From Sphingobium baderi (GTDB lineage: Bacteria; Pseudomonadota; Alphaproteobacteria; Sphingomonadales; Sphingomonadaceae), in NCBI RefSeq assembly GCF_001456115.1, contig NZ_CP013264.1:1162001-1226000 (forward strand): a DNA stretch of 64,000 nucleotides, read 5' to 3'. A program made the position numbers and the translations under genes. Shown in pieces: positions 17,846-23,949 of this stretch. The notes below the pieces were generated by a model. That model worked only from the letters and a program-made list of their open reading frames with translations. It was not told where the DNA came from and did not search any database. How positions within the stretch are numbered: position 1 is the first letter of the stretch; the number at the start of each line of letters is the position of its first letter.

Positions 17846-20119
17846 TCAGCTCAGTTCCACGCCCTTGTCCGCTGCCCACTGGCTGAGGCTGCCGCGAATG
17901 TCGACGACGGCGCGTTCCAGCACGTTCCGCATGAACGCTTGCAATTCGCCGACATCGACGGATCGGATCATCGCTTTCACCGGACCAACGGACGCCGGGG
18001 TGATCGACAGACGCCGCACGCCAAGGCCGATCAGGGCCATGGCCTCCAGCGTGCGCCCGCCCATCTCACCACATACGCCGACGGGCACTTTATGCGCGTC
18101 GCAGGCGCGCACAACCCGGTCGAGGAAGCGGACGATGGCGATGCTGAGCCAGTCATAGCGTTCCGCCAGCCGAGGATGGGCCCGGTCCGCCGCGAACAGG
18201 AATTGCGTCAGGTCATTGGTGCCTATGGACAGGAAGTCGATGCGCGGCAGCAGCAGGTCCAGCACTTCGGCAAGCGCGGGAACCTCCAGCATCGCGCCGT
18301 AGCGAACGGCGATCGGCATCTTCTTGCGCTGCTTCACCAGCCATTCGCGCTGATGTTCGACCAGAATGCGGGCCTGTTCATATTCCCAGGGCTCCGACAC
18401 CATCGGGAACATGATGTGCAGCACCTTGCCAGCCGCCGCCTCCAGCAGGGCGCGGGCCTGCGCCTTCATCAGCCCATCGCGGTCCAGCGCCAGCCGCAGG
18501 GCGCGCCAGCCCATCGCCGGATTATCCTCCAACTCCTCATCGGCCCGCTGCATATAAGGCAGCGCCTTGTCCCCACCGATATCGACGGTGCGGAAGATGA
18601 CGGGGCGATCGCCCGCCGCGTCCAGCACATCCTTATAGAGCCGCTGCTGCTTTTCCCGCTGCGGCAGGGTGGAGGACACGAGAAACTGGAATTCCGTGCG
18701 GAACAGGCCGATGCCGTCCGCCCCCACCACATCGAGCGCCTGCGCGTCGTCGCGCAAGCCGGCATTGACCATCAATTCGATCCGCGCCCCGTCCTGCGTG
18801 ACGGAAGGCAGATCGCGCATGGCGGCAAATTCGGCGCGGCGTTTCTGCGTGATATGCAGCTTGTTCTCGAACCCCTCGTCCATGTCGGGCGTCGGGCGGA
18901 TGAGCAGCGCGTTGGCGGCCACGTCCATGAGCAACAGGTCGCCTTCGTTCACCTGATGCCGGATGTCGCGCACCCGGCCCAGCACCGGCACGCCCATGGC
19001 GCGCGCGACAATGGTGACATGGGCGGTCAGCGATCCTTCCTCCAGGATCACCCCTTTCAGCCGCCGCCGGTCATATTCCAGCAGTTCGGCCGGGCCGAGA
19101 TTGCGGGCGATCAGGATGGCGTCCTGCCGCAGGCCCAGTTGCGCCGCCGTGCCAAGCTGACCCGACACGATCCGCAACAGGCGGTTGGACAGGTCCTCCA
19201 GATCGTGCATCCGGTCCTGCAACAACGGATCGTCGATCTGGCGCATCCGCATCCGGGTGCGCTGCTGCACCCGCTCGATGGCGGCTTCGGCGGTCAGGCC
19301 GCTGTCGATCGCTTCGTTGATCCGGCGAACCCAGCCTTCGTCATAGGCGAACATCTTGTAGGTTTCGAGAACCTCCTGATGCTCGCCCTCCATGCCGAAA
19401 TCGATTGCCCCGGTCATGCGGTCGACCTGCTCGCGCATCTTCGCGAAGGCGGAAAGAAGGCGCTGGCGCTCGGCCTCCACATCTTCCGCGACGGTATGTT
19501 CGATATGGACGCGGGGCTGGTGGAATACCGCATGGCCGCGTGCCATGCCCATCACCAGTTGCAGGCCGTGCAGGACGACGGTGCCGGTTTCCTGCTCGCG
19601 CTGGTCGACGGGGCCATCATCAGCCAGTTCCGCATTGGCGATCAGTTCCGCCAGCACCATGGCGACGGTCTGAAGCGCCTCTATCTCCACCTCTTCATAC
19701 CGGCGCGGTTCGACATGCTGGACGCACAGCACGCCGATGGCGCGCTCACGCCGGACAATGGGCACGCCCGCGAAGCTGTGGAACAATTCTTCGCCGGTTT
19801 CGGGGCGATAGGCATAGTCGGGATGCGATGCCGCCTCATCCAGGTTCAGCGTTTCGACATTGGTGGCGATAAGGCCGACCAGTCCTTCCCCCATCGCCAT
19901 GCGGGTGACATGGACCGCGTCCTGCTTGAGGCCGCGCGTCGCGAAAAGTTCGAGCACGCCTTCGCGCACCAGATAGATGGAGCAAACTTCGCTCGACAGG
20001 GACTGGCCGATGATGTCGACCACCTTGTTCAGCTTGGCCTGTGCGCTCGAACGCGCTGCCATGACCTCTTGCAAACTGGTGAGGATCATGCGGGCGGCGG
20101 CGGCGGGCGTGCTGGACAT
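17846..20119 (-). CDS. ptsP: phosphoenolpyruvate--protein phosphotransferase PtsP (enzyme I-Ntr)
   Basis: First enzyme of the nitrogen-related PTS, passing phosphate from PEP to HPr. The 757-residue chain has an N-terminal GAF sensor (about 15-160) and the phosphohistidine domain with His367 in SLTAHVTIVARAMGVP. A PEP-binding barrel contains SIGTNDLTQF and VCGEMGG. In relatives the GAF domain senses glutamine. Its partners HPr, ManX and HprK are encoded at 4.5-6.6 kb. lysC, the frequent neighbour of ptsP in alphaproteobacteria, is 6 kb away here behind the accessory block. Confidence 0.95.
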   Translation of the reverse strand: MSSTPAAAARMILTSLQEVMAARSSAQAKLNKVVDIIGQSLSSEVCSIYLVREGVLELFATRGLKQDAVHVTRMAMGEGLVGLIATNVETLNLDEAASHPDYAYRPETGEELFHSFAGVPIVRRERAIGVLCVQHVEPRRYEEVEIEALQTVAMVLAELIANAELADDGPVDQREQETGTVVLHGLQLVMGMARGHAVFHQPRVHIEHTVAEDVEAERQRLLSAFAKMREQVDRMTGAIDFGMEGEHQEVLETYKMFAYDEGWVRRINEAIDSGLTAEAAIERVQQRTRMRMRQIDDPLLQDRMHDLEDLSNRLLRIVSGQLGTAAQLGLRQDAILIARNLGPAELLEYDRRRLKGVILEEGSLTAHVTIVARAMGVPVLGRVRDIRHQVNEGDLLLMDVAANALLIRPTPDMDEGFENKLHITQKRRAEFAAMRDLPSVTQDGARIELMVNAGLRDDAQALDVVGADGIGLFRTEFQFLVSSTLPQREKQQRLYKDVLDAAGDRPVIFRTVDIGGDKALPYMQRADEELEDNPAMGWRALRLALDRDGLMKAQARALLEAAAGKVLHIMFPMVSEPWEYEQARILVEHQREWLVKQRKKMPIAVRYGAMLEVPALAEVLDLLLPRIDFLSIGTNDLTQFLFAADRAHPRLAERYDWLSIAIVRFLDRVVRACDAHKVPVGVCGEMGGRTLEAMALIGLGVRRLSITPASVGPVKAMIRSVDVGELQAFMRNVLERAVVDIRGSLSQWAADKGVELS

Positions 20120-20210: not shown

Positions 20211-20678
20211 TCAGGCGCTCGCGGCGGAGGTTTCGCAAAGCGCCTTGAACTGATCCGCCATCTGGTCCCAGCCGGGATGGAAGCCCATTTCCAGATGTTT
20301 GTTGAGCGTTTCCGCGTCCCAGTGGCGCGCCGTCGCAGTGAAGCGCGTGCCTTCTCCCTCGTCGGCAAAGCTCCAGATCGCGGTCATGAAGGGGGTTTGC
20401 GGCACCCAGCCAACGGCATAGGCATCGGTGGTGACGATCCGCTCATGCGGCACGACTTCCAGGAATATGCCCTCCATCGGGCCGGTATCCTCGCCGTCCG
20501 GGCCATACATGCGGACGGCGCTGCGGCCGCCGGGGCGCAGATCTTCCTCCACCACCTCGGCGCGCCAGGGCTTGGGACAGAACCATTCGTCCTTGAGATC
20601 GACCCACACTTTCCAGGCAATTCCGCGCGGCGCATTCACATGCCGCGTCACTGAAAGCTCATGTTCCGCGCCGCTCAT
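20211..20678 (-). CDS. SRPBCC (AHSA1-like) domain protein
   Basis: A 155-residue START-fold protein related to Aha1 C-terminal/PF08327 proteins. It begins with ELSVTRHVNAPRGIAWKVWVD and contains GPMEGIFLEVVPHERIVTTD and a C-terminal WDQMADQFKAL, the usual closing helix. These proteins bind hydrophobic small molecules; the ligand is unknown. The ATG at 20678 overlaps the stop of the VOC gene (ATGA), so it is the last gene of the five-gene operon controlled from 22.9 kb. Confidence 0.88.
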   Translation of the reverse strand: MSGAEHELSVTRHVNAPRGIAWKVWVDLKDEWFCPKPWRAEVVEEDLRPGGRSAVRMYGPDGEDTGPMEGIFLEVVPHERIVTTDAYAVGWVPQTPFMTAIWSFADEGEGTRFTATARHWDAETLNKHLEMGFHPGWDQMADQFKALCETSAASA

Positions 20679-21166
20679 ACGGTTTCTCCCTTGAAAGCGG
20701 CTTTCAGCGCAGCGATGTCCAGCTTGCCCATGGTCATGAGCGCGCCCATCATGCGACCGACCGCCTGCGTGTCGTCGCTCTTTTGCAGGGCAAGTATCTC
20801 CTCCGGCACGATCTGCCAGGAAAGACCATATTTGTCCTTGAGCCAGCCGCATGGCCCCGGCTCCCCGCCGTCCGCCGTCAGCGCTTCATGCCAGCGGTCT
20901 ACTTCCGCCTGATCCTTGCAGGATACGGACAGCGAAACCGCTTCGTTGAAGCGGAAATGCGGCCCGCCGTTCAGCGCCTGATAGCTCTGGCCGAACACAG
21001 TGAACTCCGCCACCAGAACATCCCCTTCCTTGAAGGGGGAGGGTGATGATGTGCCGGGCGGATAATAGCTGATGCCGTCCACCGATCCGCCGAAAACGGA
21101 AACATAGAAGCGCGCGGCTTCCTCGGCCTGTCCGTCGAACCACAGGCATGGGGAAATCTTCGACAT
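20675..21166 (-). CDS. VOC family protein, PhnB-like
   Basis: A 163-residue single vicinal-oxygen-chelate domain of the PhnB / 3-dmu-9_3-mt type. The N-terminus reads SKISPCLWFDGQAEEAARFYVSVF, and the motifs GGPHFRFNEAVSLSV and GWLKDKYGLSWQIVP (about 107-121) are typical. Many family members are annotated as demethylubiquinone methyltransferases without evidence; no methyltransferase fold is present. A GGAGG site lies nine bases before the ATG. It is 15 bp after the two-domain VOC gene and overlaps the SRPBCC gene. Confidence 0.88.
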   Translation of the reverse strand: MSKISPCLWFDGQAEEAARFYVSVFGGSVDGISYYPPGTSSPSPFKEGDVLVAEFTVFGQSYQALNGGPHFRFNEAVSLSVSCKDQAEVDRWHEALTADGGEPGPCGWLKDKYGLSWQIVPEEILALQKSDDTQAVGRMMGALMTMGKLDIAALKAAFKGETV

Positions 21167-21181
21167 GATGATCCACCTCCC

Positions 21182-21973
21182 TCAGCTTGCGCGCGTGCCG
21201 ACCAGCGCGAACATCGCGCCCTGCGGGTCTGTCGCCTGGATGATCCACGCGCCGCCGGGCACCTCCATCGGGCCGTTGAGCAGGGTTCCGCCGCCCGCCT
21301 TCACCTTGTCCACTGCCTCGTCGATGTCGCCTACCACGAAGTAGAACAGCCAGAGCGGCTGCGGCATTTCCGCGGGCTTCTTCATCATGCCGCCGGACAT
21401 GTTGTTGAAATCCGTACCGCCGGACAGGGAAAAAAGCTGATAGCTGCCCATCTCGCCCATATCCATGGCGTCGCCCTTTCCCCATCCGAACTGGGATGTG
21501 TAGAAGGCAAGGTCCGCGTCGAAATCGCCGGAATAGAGTTCATGCCAGCCGACATGACCTTTTGCCATGGATGAGGAGGCATCCATCCCTTCAGGGCTGG
21601 AGCCTTTGAGCAGCAGGAAGGTCGCGCCGCCGGGATCGCCCATCACCGCAAAGCGTCCCACGCCCGGAATATCCTCCGGCGCGCGCTGCACCTTGGCGCC
21701 CGCTTCCGAAAGGCGCCTCGCATCGGCATCGACGTCCGCCGACCCGATATAGCCGCCCCACCAGGGACTCATGCCGCACGCCCCTGCTTCCGCCGGGATC
21801 GCCATGATCCCGCCCAGCGGCCCGGTGCTGCCCGAAATCACATGATAGCTGTGATCGCCGCCTTCGAATGCCTGCGCGCTCCACCCAACCACGTCGCCGT
21901 AAAAGGCAAGGGCTGCCTGCGGATCGCTGGTCATCAGTTCATACCAGAAGAATTGGCCAGTCAGATTGGTCAT
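21182..21973 (-). CDS. two-domain VOC (glyoxalase/bleomycin-resistance fold) protein
   Basis: A 263-residue tandem VOC protein. Domain 1 is about residues 3-125 (TGQFFWYELMTSDPQAALAF) and domain 2 about 135-260 (GHVGWHELYSGDFDADLAFY). Both repeats start with W-x-E-L-x-(S/T)-x-D, indicating internal duplication. Each ends in a metal/ligand-strand segment such as DPGGATFLLLKG and DPQGAMFALVG. It resembles the CFP-30B/27-kDa antigen group; substrate is unknown. AGGAGA precedes the ATG. Third gene of the cluster. Confidence 0.88.
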   Translation of the reverse strand: MTNLTGQFFWYELMTSDPQAALAFYGDVVGWSAQAFEGGDHSYHVISGSTGPLGGIMAIPAEAGACGMSPWWGGYIGSADVDADARRLSEAGAKVQRAPEDIPGVGRFAVMGDPGGATFLLLKGSSPEGMDASSSMAKGHVGWHELYSGDFDADLAFYTSQFGWGKGDAMDMGEMGSYQLFSLSGGTDFNNMSGGMMKKPAEMPQPLWLFYFVVGDIDEAVDKVKAGGGTLLNGPMEVPGGAWIIQATDPQGAMFALVGTRAS

Positions 21974-21997
21974 CGTCCGTCTCCTGATTGCGGGGCG

Positions 21998-22360
21998 TCA
22001 GGCGCGCTCGTCCAGCAGCACCGAAAAGCCGCCATAGACCATCCGGGCGCCCGAAAAGGGCATGTCCTGTCCCTCCTGTGGCTTCATGCGCTCATCGGCC
22101 ATCACTTTCGCCATGCCCGCGTCGCGAGCCTCCTTCGAAGGCCATTCGATCCAGGAAAAGACGACTTCCTCATTCTGCTCCGCAATGACGCAGGTTCGGA
22201 AATCGTTGATCTTCCCTTCCTTGATGTCATCGCCCCAGCATTCGACCACGCGGGTCGCGCCATGTTCGATGAAGATCGGCGCGGCATAGGCCGCCGCGTC
22301 CTTGTAGGCCTGCTTGTTCTCTTTTGGCACAGGCACCACGAAACCGTCCATATAGCTCAT
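21998..22360 (-). CDS. DUF1428 domain protein (YbaA-like)
   Basis: A 120-residue protein recognised as DUF1428 by YMDGFVVPVP at the N-terminus, FIEHGATRVVECWGDD in the middle and DMPFSGARMVYGGF near the C-terminus. The fold is a ferredoxin-like dimeric alpha/beta barrel. Function is unknown; YbaA of E. coli is the best-known homologue. AGGAGAG precedes the ATG. It lies 30 bp after the first VOC gene and 24 bp before the next, consistent with one transcript. Confidence 0.9.
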   Translation of the reverse strand: MSYMDGFVVPVPKENKQAYKDAAAYAAPIFIEHGATRVVECWGDDIKEGKINDFRTCVIAEQNEEVVFSWIEWPSKEARDAGMAKVMADERMKPQEGQDMPFSGARMVYGGFSVLLDERA

Positions 22361-22390
22361 CGTCTCTCTCCTAATTGCCCTGTTCGGGTC

Positions 22391-22837
22391 TCAGGCAGCC
22401 GCAGGCTCGCCCTGTCCGGTCGCCAGGGCGGCCTCCATATCCATCCACGTCACCTCCCAGATATGGCCGTCCAGATCCGCAAAATTGCGGCCATACATGA
22501 AACCATGATCTTGCTTTGGATTAGGCTCCGTTCCGCCCGCGGCAAGCGCCCTTTCCACAGTCGCATCGACATCCGGGCGGTTCGCTTCGCTGAGCGCCAG
22601 CAGCATCTGCGCGGTTTCATGGGCATCGGGAATTTTGCGCGGTGTAAAGCTGCTAAACCGCTCATGCGTCAGCAGCATGGCGTGGATCGTGTCGGAAAAG
22701 CTCATCATCTGCGCGTTATCATCGGCAAAATCATTGTTCCGGACCGCGCCGACCGCCTCATAAAAGGCTATCGAGGCGGAAAGATTCTTCACCGGCAGGT
22801 TCACGAATATCATCTTGGGAGCAGGGGCATTCGACAT
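22391..22837 (-). CDS. VOC family protein, first gene of the cluster
   Basis: A 148-residue single VOC domain (about 7-130): MIFVNLPVKNLSASIAFYEAV at the start and DLDGHIWEVTWMD at the end, where the E of WEV is a usual metal ligand position. The start at 22837 was chosen because GAGGAG lies at good spacing; the frame is open further upstream into the regulatory region but without family text. It is divergent from the HxlR regulator and closest to the palindromes at 22918-22958. Confidence 0.88.
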   Translation of the reverse strand: MSNAPAPKMIFVNLPVKNLSASIAFYEAVGAVRNNDFADDNAQMMSFSDTIHAMLLTHERFSSFTPRKIPDAHETAQMLLALSEANRPDVDATVERALAAGGTEPNPKQDHGFMYGRNFADLDGHIWEVTWMDMEAALATGQGEPAAA

Positions 22838-22917
22838 CACATATCTCCTCGGGATTATCTGGTCCGGCATCGCATCTGACCTGAACAGGCGAATCGCCGA
22901 CTTGAACTTTTTGCACT

Positions 22918-22958
22918 CATAACTTATGTTATGCAACAGACAAGTTATAAAATATAAC
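22918..22958. promoter_or_regulatory. paired palindromes, candidate HxlR operators
   Basis: Two perfect inverted repeats lie in the divergent promoter region: CATAACTTATGTTATG (22918-22933) and GTTATAAAATATAAC (22944-22958). Each is built from the half-site GTTAT/ATAAC. Their centres are about 25-26 bp apart, and the second ends 15 bp before the regulator's GTG. Autoregulation plus control of the VOC operon is inferred. Confidence 0.7.
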
Positions 22959-22973
22959 TATGGATTCTCAAAC

Positions 22974-23654
22974 GTGAAAAAACGAGCCTATCTGGACGGA
23001 TGCGCGGTTGCCCATGCGCTCGACATCATCGGAGATCGCTGGGCCATGCCGATCATGCGGGAATTGATGCTGGGACCGAAGCGCTTTACCGATCTGCGCG
23101 CCAGCCTGCCCGGAATCAGCGCCAATGTGCTGACGCAGCGGCTGGAGGAACTGGAAGCGGCCAGCATATTGATCCGCCGCCGCCTGCCCCCGCCCGCCGC
23201 CAGCCAGATCTATGAGTTGACCGATTGGGGCCGCGAGTCGGAAATCCTGTTTCAGGTGCTGGGCCGCTGGGCGTGCCGCTCTCCCACGATGCAGCCGGGT
23301 CAGCCGATGAGCAATGTGTCGGTGATCCTGTCGATGCGGACCATGATCGACCGCGGCCGGATCGGCGACATGGATGCCGCCATCGGTATGCGCTTCGGCG
23401 AGGAGGTGTTCCGCGCCACCTTGAAGAGCGGGGATTTCATCATCCATCGGGGCGAAACGGAGGATGCCGACGTCATCTTCTCCGGCGACCAGAATGCGCT
23501 CGTCGCGGTGGTTTACGGCGGTGCGCGGTTCGAGGATGTGGCGGACGTCCTGACGGTGGAGGGCGACAGGGAACTTGCCGAACGCTTCATCCGGCTGTTT
23601 CCCCTGCCACCCAAGGCCCCCTCGACCGTTACGCCGGAGACGACAGCTTCATGA
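22974..23654 (+). CDS. HxlR-type transcriptional regulator with SCP2-like C-terminal domain
   Basis: A 226-residue DNA-binding protein. The N-terminal winged helix (about 5-100) shows the HxlR pattern DIIGDRWAMPIMRELMLGPKR and NVLTQRLEELEAASI. Unlike ordinary HxlR proteins (about 110-130 residues) it continues with a domain of about 100 residues (115-215; GMRFGEEVF, DADVIFSGDQNALVAVVYGG) that looks like an SCP2 sterol-carrier fold and may bind the inducer. The GTG at 22974 is preferred. A five-codon ATG frame upstream (22960-22977) overlaps it. The 3' end overlaps gdx convergently by 26 bp. Confidence 0.88.
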   Translation: MKKRAYLDGCAVAHALDIIGDRWAMPIMRELMLGPKRFTDLRASLPGISANVLTQRLEELEAASILIRRRLPPPAASQIYELTDWGRESEILFQVLGRWACRSPTMQPGQPMSNVSVILSMRTMIDRGRIGDMDAAIGMRFGEEVFRATLKSGDFIIHRGETEDADVIFSGDQNALVAVVYGGARFEDVADVLTVEGDRELAERFIRLFPLPPKAPSTVTPETTAS

Positions 23655-23949
23655 GGAGGAGGCCGCCAAGGATCAGCGCGGCTGCGACCAGACGCATGGC
23701 CGACGCGGCTTCTCCCAGAACGGCGATGCCGACCAGAAACGCGCCGACCGCACCGATCCCGGTCCAGATCGTATAGGCCGTGCCGAGTGGCAGGCTTTTC
23801 ATCGATACGGACAGCAGGGCGAAACTGCCGATCATCGCGACCAGAGTGATGATGGTGGGCGTGAGGCGCGAAAAGCCCTGGGACTGCTTCATCGCAAAGG
23901 CCCAGACGATTTCCAGCAGACCGGCGGCGACCAAATATACCCAGGCCAT
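23629..23949 (-). CDS. gdx: SMR-family guanidinium exporter Gdx (SugE)
   Basis: A four-helix small multidrug-resistance protein of 106 residues. Glu13 in LLEIVWA is the proton/substrate-coupling residue. The SugE/Gdx subclass marks FSRLTPTIIT (26-35), MKSLPLGTAY (50-59) and WTGIGAVGAF are present, distinguishing it from EmrE-type pumps. Known Gdx proteins export guanidinium in exchange for protons. GGAGG lies six bases before the ATG, just downstream of hairpins resembling a guanidine-II riboswitch. Confidence 0.92.
   Translation of the reverse strand: MAWVYLVAAGLLEIVWAFAMKQSQGFSRLTPTIITLVAMIGSFALLSVSMKSLPLGTAYTIWTGIGAVGAFLVGIAVLGEAASAMRLVAAALILGGLLLMKLSSPA

Follow-up and report, generated by a model that had tools for sequence, protein, structure and literature searches.

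A regulator gene encoding an HxlR-type DNA-binding domain followed by an SCP2-like domain (HxlR-SCP2), together with the five-gene operon that diverges from it, constitutes a genuine unit in Sphingobium baderi, one that is conserved and under local control. The unit lies at positions 20211-23654 of the 64,000-nucleotide stretch analyzed here (contig NZ_CP013264.1, positions 1,162,001 to 1,226,000, hereafter the window), in a genome of 4.58 Mb, and all six genes are present: the plus-strand regulator faces five minus-strand genes encoding (i) VOC1, (ii) a DUF1428 protein, (iii) VOC2, (iv) VOC3, and (v) an AHSA1-type SRPBCC protein. The original prediction, made from the letters of the DNA, had described five tightly packed genes of these families facing an HxlR-SCP2 regulator; the layout is right, successive genes from VOC1 to AHSA1 being separated by 30, 24, and 15 bp and the last two overlapping by 4 bp, and the family identities are confirmed by Pfam scores above cut-off. 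HxlR-controlled operons are a kind already known; what the present analysis adds to that first reading is a predicted operator, comprising two regularly spaced dyads in the divergent promoter region. The arrangement and its likely control site recur in many related bacteria, so that a genuine stress response appears to be encoded here.

Conservation of the divergent unit

Two sets of relatives were compared. The family set comprises 66 long HxlR-SCP2 homologues (at least 148 bits) found in 64 of 149 genomes of the same family, a homologue split into two frames in genome G052 being counted once and two others, L113 and L126, being incomplete in the alignment; the named set comprises the 80 highest-ranking of 584 candidates confirmed in a contig scan. 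The sets share two loci (L191 duplicates L062, and L212 duplicates L063). Within 4 kb, 63/66 family loci and 80/80 named loci carry one or more of the five classes (VOC1, DUF1428, VOC2, VOC3, and AHSA1) divergent from the regulator, and at least three are found at 48/66 and 51/80, respectively, the family loci without any being L071, L116, and L122. In contrast, 20 short HxlR loci used as a control, hand-picked from stronger partial-length matches and therefore not random, have no gene of the five classes in the 4 kb to either side (0/20), which leads us to reject a chance neighbourhood; GST genes occur near two of these controls (L258 and L262). The proposal that the genes form a unit with the regulator is thus upheld, and the conservation search finds their co-occurrence beyond this strain.

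The individual classes recur at different frequencies, with DUF1428 at 58, VOC3 at 47, VOC2 at 46, and VOC1 at 36 of the 66 family loci, and VOC1 and VOC3 at 62 each and DUF1428 at 53 of the best 80 named loci; VOC1 is missing from nine of the 25 closest named loci (L142-L166). Further recurrent members in relatives comprise GST, RibD_C/DHFR-like, DoxX, DUF899, and YCII proteins and another VOC, and gene content and order differ between loci. The regulator is found in 72 of 94 genomes of the genus (E 1e-30 or better). Among the best 80 of 584 candidates the closest named relatives at the locus are Sphingobium, the S. wenxiniae regulator being 91% identical, and the named loci also include Microvirga, Methylobacterium, Skermanella, Roseomonas, Aureimonas, and a Woeseiaceae metagenome-assembled genome. 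Plasmids match the regulator in 644 records, 45 of them covering 80% of the query, and six plasmid records that were inspected, one from Deinococcus, all annotate a divergent VOC, DUF1428, GST, or dihydrofolate-reductase-family gene.

The operon does not accompany every HxlR-SCP2-like gene, since 25 distant members (L227-L251; 87-117 bits, some partial, with flanks of up to 1.5 kb inspected) are devoid of the query classes except at L244, where a DUF1428 gene adjoins the distant HxlR-SCP2-like gene on the same strand. Two other origins were also rejected: (i) an anti-phage system, with none of the six proteins matching a PADLOC family at E 0.001 or better, and (ii) a phage origin, with 14 phage records matched, all of them over less than 80% of the query and, in the five matches listed, over residues 1-112 at most.

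At two loci the enzyme genes lie directly downstream of a TetR-family regulator, L140 (5363-9477) carrying DUF1428, VOC2, VOC3, AHSA1, and GST, the last assigned by eye, and L141 (4952-9919) carrying DUF1428, VOC1, VOC2, VOC3, AHSA1, and GST. As judged from gene order, this is a regulator swap, TetR-type instead of HxlR-SCP2, and the tandem dyads are absent from both loci.

A predicted double operator between overlapping promoters

In the relatives, the dyad AGTTA-N7-TAACT, 17 bp long, appears twice in the divergent gap, with 21 bp from one start to the next. Of 145 distinct regions, the window included (147 regions minus the two duplicates L191 and L212), 122 contain a dyad pair with at least 7/10 matching positions in each box, compared with an average of 0.12 in a first-order Markov control that never exceeded 1; the initial motif search was anchored on open reading frame (ORF) starts, and some regions with long ORFs were missed by it. 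The spacing is strict, 21 bp being seen at 116/146 loci and every other spacing from 15 to 29 bp at 0 to 4. The 1.96 Mb lying outside the divergent regions contain seven dyad pairs, and the pair is found at 0/59 other loci, comprising 14 DUF1428 loci without the regulator, the 20 controls, and the 25 distant homologues. The window holds one pair only, starting at 22922 (7/10 and 10/10; Table 1). Box 2 scores at least 8/10 in all 25 closest named loci and box 1 below 7 in 13 of them, and among the six plasmid loci the pair is present at 7/10 in one and at 6/10 in three, the Deinococcus locus having none.

Two predicted promoters, on opposite strands, stand in fixed geometry to box 1. In the relatives, the regulator promoter (TTGACA/TATAAA, 17-bp spacer) matches a mean of 8.05/12 positions, compared with 1.91-3.86 when shifted by 3-9 bases, and the operon promoter (TTGCTT/CATCAA, 17-bp spacer) a mean of 6.20/12, compared with 1.75-4.77. 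Box 1 covers the predicted −10 of the regulator and the predicted −35 of the operon, a placement that would fit repression of both promoters; box 2 lies just downstream of the regulator promoter, on the start codon in most relatives, and near −50 of the operon. A start codon, in frame and open, falls exactly between the boxes in 100/122 regions, and a TTG is located 19-21 nt upstream of box 1 in 115/122, which together suggest that the regulator message may be leaderless in most members. The clade of the window mostly lacks the between-box start and uses a start codon further down; for the S. baderi regulator the start is most likely GTG 22974, because the orthologue at L144 has ATG at the same codon, with the in-frame ATG 22926 as a possible alternative.

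The distribution of the sites points to local rather than global control. Box 2 with up to two mismatches has one site in the whole S. baderi genome and none on the reverse strand, backward controls giving 0 and 2. A strict tandem pattern, which the window itself does not match, finds 44 matches in the 149 family genomes, one each in 44 genomes (backward control, 4), and 40 of these 44 lie at the start of an HxlR-SCP2 gene as compared by eye with the positions of the regulator homologues, the other four (G024, G037, G109, and G117) being elsewhere. Because of this 40/44 coincidence, the regulator is, as far as site positions tell, a local switch; a global regulon is not supported by the site counts, single boxes not having been searched in other genomes.

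Two side observations concern the same region. At L071 (G072:C2:730588-731253), the HxlR-SCP2 gene keeps the tandem operator with no five-class gene divergent within 4 kb, and the same genome holds a second HxlR-SCP2 copy, L099, with DUF1428 and VOC2. A second conserved element, CGA[ACG]TC (window 22889-22896), is found in 72/122 regions in the 75 nt upstream of box 1, against a background of 21/610; it sits in the operon leader, its commonest distance from box 1 being 31 nt.

Architecture of the regulator and comparison with known systems

The regulator comprises (i) an N-terminal winged helix-turn-helix domain matching Pfam HxlR (PF01638) with 69.4 bits, above cut-off, and (ii) a C-terminal SCP2-like domain of about 110 residues, matching Pfam Alkyl_sulf_C with 27.2 bits (cut-off 27) and displaying an SCP2-like fold. 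The nearest solved structure to the DNA-binding domain is YodB, both by sequence (75.1 bits) and by fold in Foldseek, including the quinone-bound form 5hs9, and the C-terminal part resembles alkylsulfatase/SCP2 domains, with UbiJ-SCP2 among the matches; the VIA-align list is a re-examination of the Foldseek matches only. Cys10, the sole conserved cysteine of the regulator, is invariant in 65/65 ungapped rows of an alignment of 67 and aligns with Cys14 of the HypR chain 4a5m. The regulator has in it the conserved N-terminal cysteine that marks redox sensors of the YodB/HypR kind. The second cysteine of HypR (in RRICPS of the HypR chain) has no cysteine counterpart, the equivalent residue being Leu45, a leucine invariant in the 38 rows of alignment A2. 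In two genomes the regulator gene lies in two pieces on overlapping stretches (G778:C2:2554375-2555048 and G052:C2:807223-807866) and looks broken.

The closest described systems are the MarR/DUF24, that is, HxlR-type, redox repressors YodB, CatR, and HypR of Bacillus subtilis. HypR switches through an inter-subunit disulfide formed via its second cysteine, a residue without counterpart here. Unlike all three, the present regulator carries the added SCP2-like domain, and its tandem operator lies over a divergent VOC/DUF1428/AHSA1 operon. The formaldehyde-responsive HxlR of B. subtilis targets hxlAB; compared to it, the present protein is a predicted repressor with an extra domain, and no hxlAB or ribulose monophosphate gene is found among the neighbours, which encode VOC, DUF1428, AHSA1, SugE, and PtsP proteins and one protein without a Pfam match. 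The C-terminal domain recalls those of Pisa1, SdsA1, UbiJ, and SCP2, but is fused to a DNA-binding domain, with no sulfatase domain. VOC2 is a two-domain VOC like Rv0577 of Mycobacterium tuberculosis, a protein with a methylglyoxal role; the comparison was made at the protein level. Finally, the partner sets of the ECF41/ECF42 sigma factors comprise YCII/DGPF, RibD_C, VOC, and SRPBCC proteins, and the loci of the relatives share the YCII, RibD_C, VOC, and AHSA1 families with them; in contrast to those sets, no sigma-factor domain was detected in the eight window proteins scanned, and the HxlR-SCP2 regulator takes its place.

Proposed mechanism and alternatives

We give about an even chance to the reading in which the regulator acts as a local one-component repressor switch, released by a reactive or hydrophobic compound and controlling a set of detoxification-type proteins. 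HxlR-SCP2 dimers would bind the two dyads, two helical turns apart, and block both promoters: at box 1 they would cover the −10 of the regulator and the −35 of the operon, and at box 2 the stretch just downstream of the regulator promoter. Release would follow when Cys10 senses a reactive or hydrophobic small molecule and/or the SCP2-like domain binds one, allowing production of the VOC, DUF1428, and AHSA1 proteins and, in relatives, of GST, RibD_C, DoxX, YCII, and DUF899 as well. The link to electrophiles is one that we infer from the conserved cysteine, the YodB-like fold, and the recurring detoxification-type partners (GST, VOC, and DoxX). The original prediction is partly supported; the single toxic aldehyde, quinone, or hydrophobic compound that it envisaged as sensed by the regulator and handled by the operon proteins is a conjecture.

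The direction of control over the operon might be the opposite. The PDB record of B. subtilis HxlR names that protein an activator, and the weakness of the operon promoter (mean 6.20/12, −10 CATCAA), together with the position of box 2 upstream of its −35, would suit a regulator that represses itself and, bound at box 2 near −50 of the predicted start, activates the divergent operon; yet box 1 fully covers the operon −35, whose TTG is conserved at 98-100% per position in the 122 regions, an unusual placement for an activator, and we regard this arrangement as rather unlikely. Compatible with it, and somewhat less doubtful in our estimate, is a switch operated through the SCP2-like domain alone, with a lipid, sterol-like, isoprenoid, or aromatic compound as its ligand and Cys10 in a structural role, as suggested by the Pfam and fold assignments of this domain, whose matches include alkylsulfatases and UbiJ-SCP2, and by the lack of a second redox cysteine; the invariance of Cys10, at the very position of HypR Cys14, argues against a purely structural residue.

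The operon might also have no common substrate, being a loose, mixed-purpose set of small ligand-binding proteins under a mobile regulator. Variable gene content and order, the plasmid copies, including the one in Deinococcus, and the occurrence of the same enzyme classes under a TetR-type regulator at L140 and L141 would all agree with such an accessory operon, but the same few classes recur across loci, even when the regulator is swapped, and we consider it distinctly improbable. Returning to the repressor switch, a broader and tentative extension, which we think possible though doubtful, would make the HxlR-SCP2 proteins of this clade dual-input sensors, combining a reactive thiol with a hydrophobic-ligand pocket. 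They would run an undescribed, dedicated stress unit in Alphaproteobacteria and, by plasmid, Deinococcus, through a strictly spaced double operator inside two overlapping promoters and a mostly leaderless regulator message, giving DUF1428, PhnB-type VOC, and AHSA1 proteins a first physiological role in handling one class of endogenous or environmental electrophile. To our knowledge, the function of the widespread DUF1428, PhnB-type VOC, AHSA1, and YCII proteins is unknown; their apparent placement under a predictable, single-site switch makes it testable, and draws attention to HxlR proteins extended by a lipid-type ligand domain.

Gene organization and operon proteins

The coordinates of the unit are collected in Table 1. 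The gene positions given by the original prediction hold, except that its long SRPBCC ORF, starting at 20852, begins too early; the AHSA1 gene is best read from the ATG within the ATGA overlap, and VOC1 from ATG 22837.

Table 1. Genes and predicted control elements of the HxlR-SCP2 unit (window positions)
Feature	Position	Strand	Evidence
HxlR-SCP2 regulator	22974..23654	+	226 aa from GTG 22974; alternative in-frame ATG 22926
VOC1, single-domain glyoxalase-fold	22391..22837	-	Pfam Glyoxalase 28.8; PDB 4gym 116 bits
DUF1428 protein (YbaA family)	21998..22360	-	Pfam DUF1428 (PF07237) 149.7 bits vs cut-off 27; PDB 2okq YbaA 154.4 bits
VOC2, two-domain VOC (Rv0577-like)	21182..21973	-	Pfam Glyoxalase 78.3; PDB 3oxh Rv0577 118.9 bits
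VOC3, PhnB / 3-dmu-9_3-mt type	20675..21166	-	Pfam 3-dmu-9_3-mt 142.5; PDB 1u69 137.5 bits
AHSA1-type SRPBCC	20211..20678	-	Pfam AHSA1 72.7; ATG overlaps VOC3 stop by 4 bp
Predicted regulator promoter TTGAAC-17-TATGTT	22902..22930	+	8/12 consensus positions; fixed geometry to box 1
Predicted operon promoter TTGCAT-17-CAAAAA (weak -10)	22908..22936	-	6/12 consensus positions; fixed geometry to box 1
Predicted operator box 1	22922..22938	.	7/10 dyad positions; over predicted regulator -10 TATGTT and operon -35 TTGCAT
Predicted operator box 2, AGTTATAAAATATAACT	22943..22959	.	10/10 dyad positions; starts 21 bp from box 1

Among the solved structures closest to the operon proteins, several are deposited as hypothetical or uncharacterized. 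VOC1 leads the operon in 86 of the 142 loci with a called gene chain (146 examined). In alignments restricted to matches above 80 bits with 75% query coverage, VOC3 Cys106 is conserved in 108/108 rows and AHSA1 His119 and His128 in 68/68, and no metal triad is evident, on reading the alignments, among the residues of VOC1-VOC3 conserved at 90% or more. VOC2 was rejected as the signalling protein KbpA (NF053614), scoring 80.5 against an equivalog cut-off of 250 bits. The DUF1428 domain is frequently tandem-fused, with two domains in one protein at L062 (9132-9860) and double matches in many family loci.

The far side of the operon is flanked by a PtsP gene (17846-20119). A SugE-type SMR transporter gene (23629-23949; NCBIfam 126.9 bits, cut-off 126) overlaps the 3′ end of the regulator gene, and a riboswitch beside it was rejected, the window having no Rfam match at gathering score. 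A SugE-type gene is also seen beside the regulator in nine of the 25 closest named loci (L142-L166).

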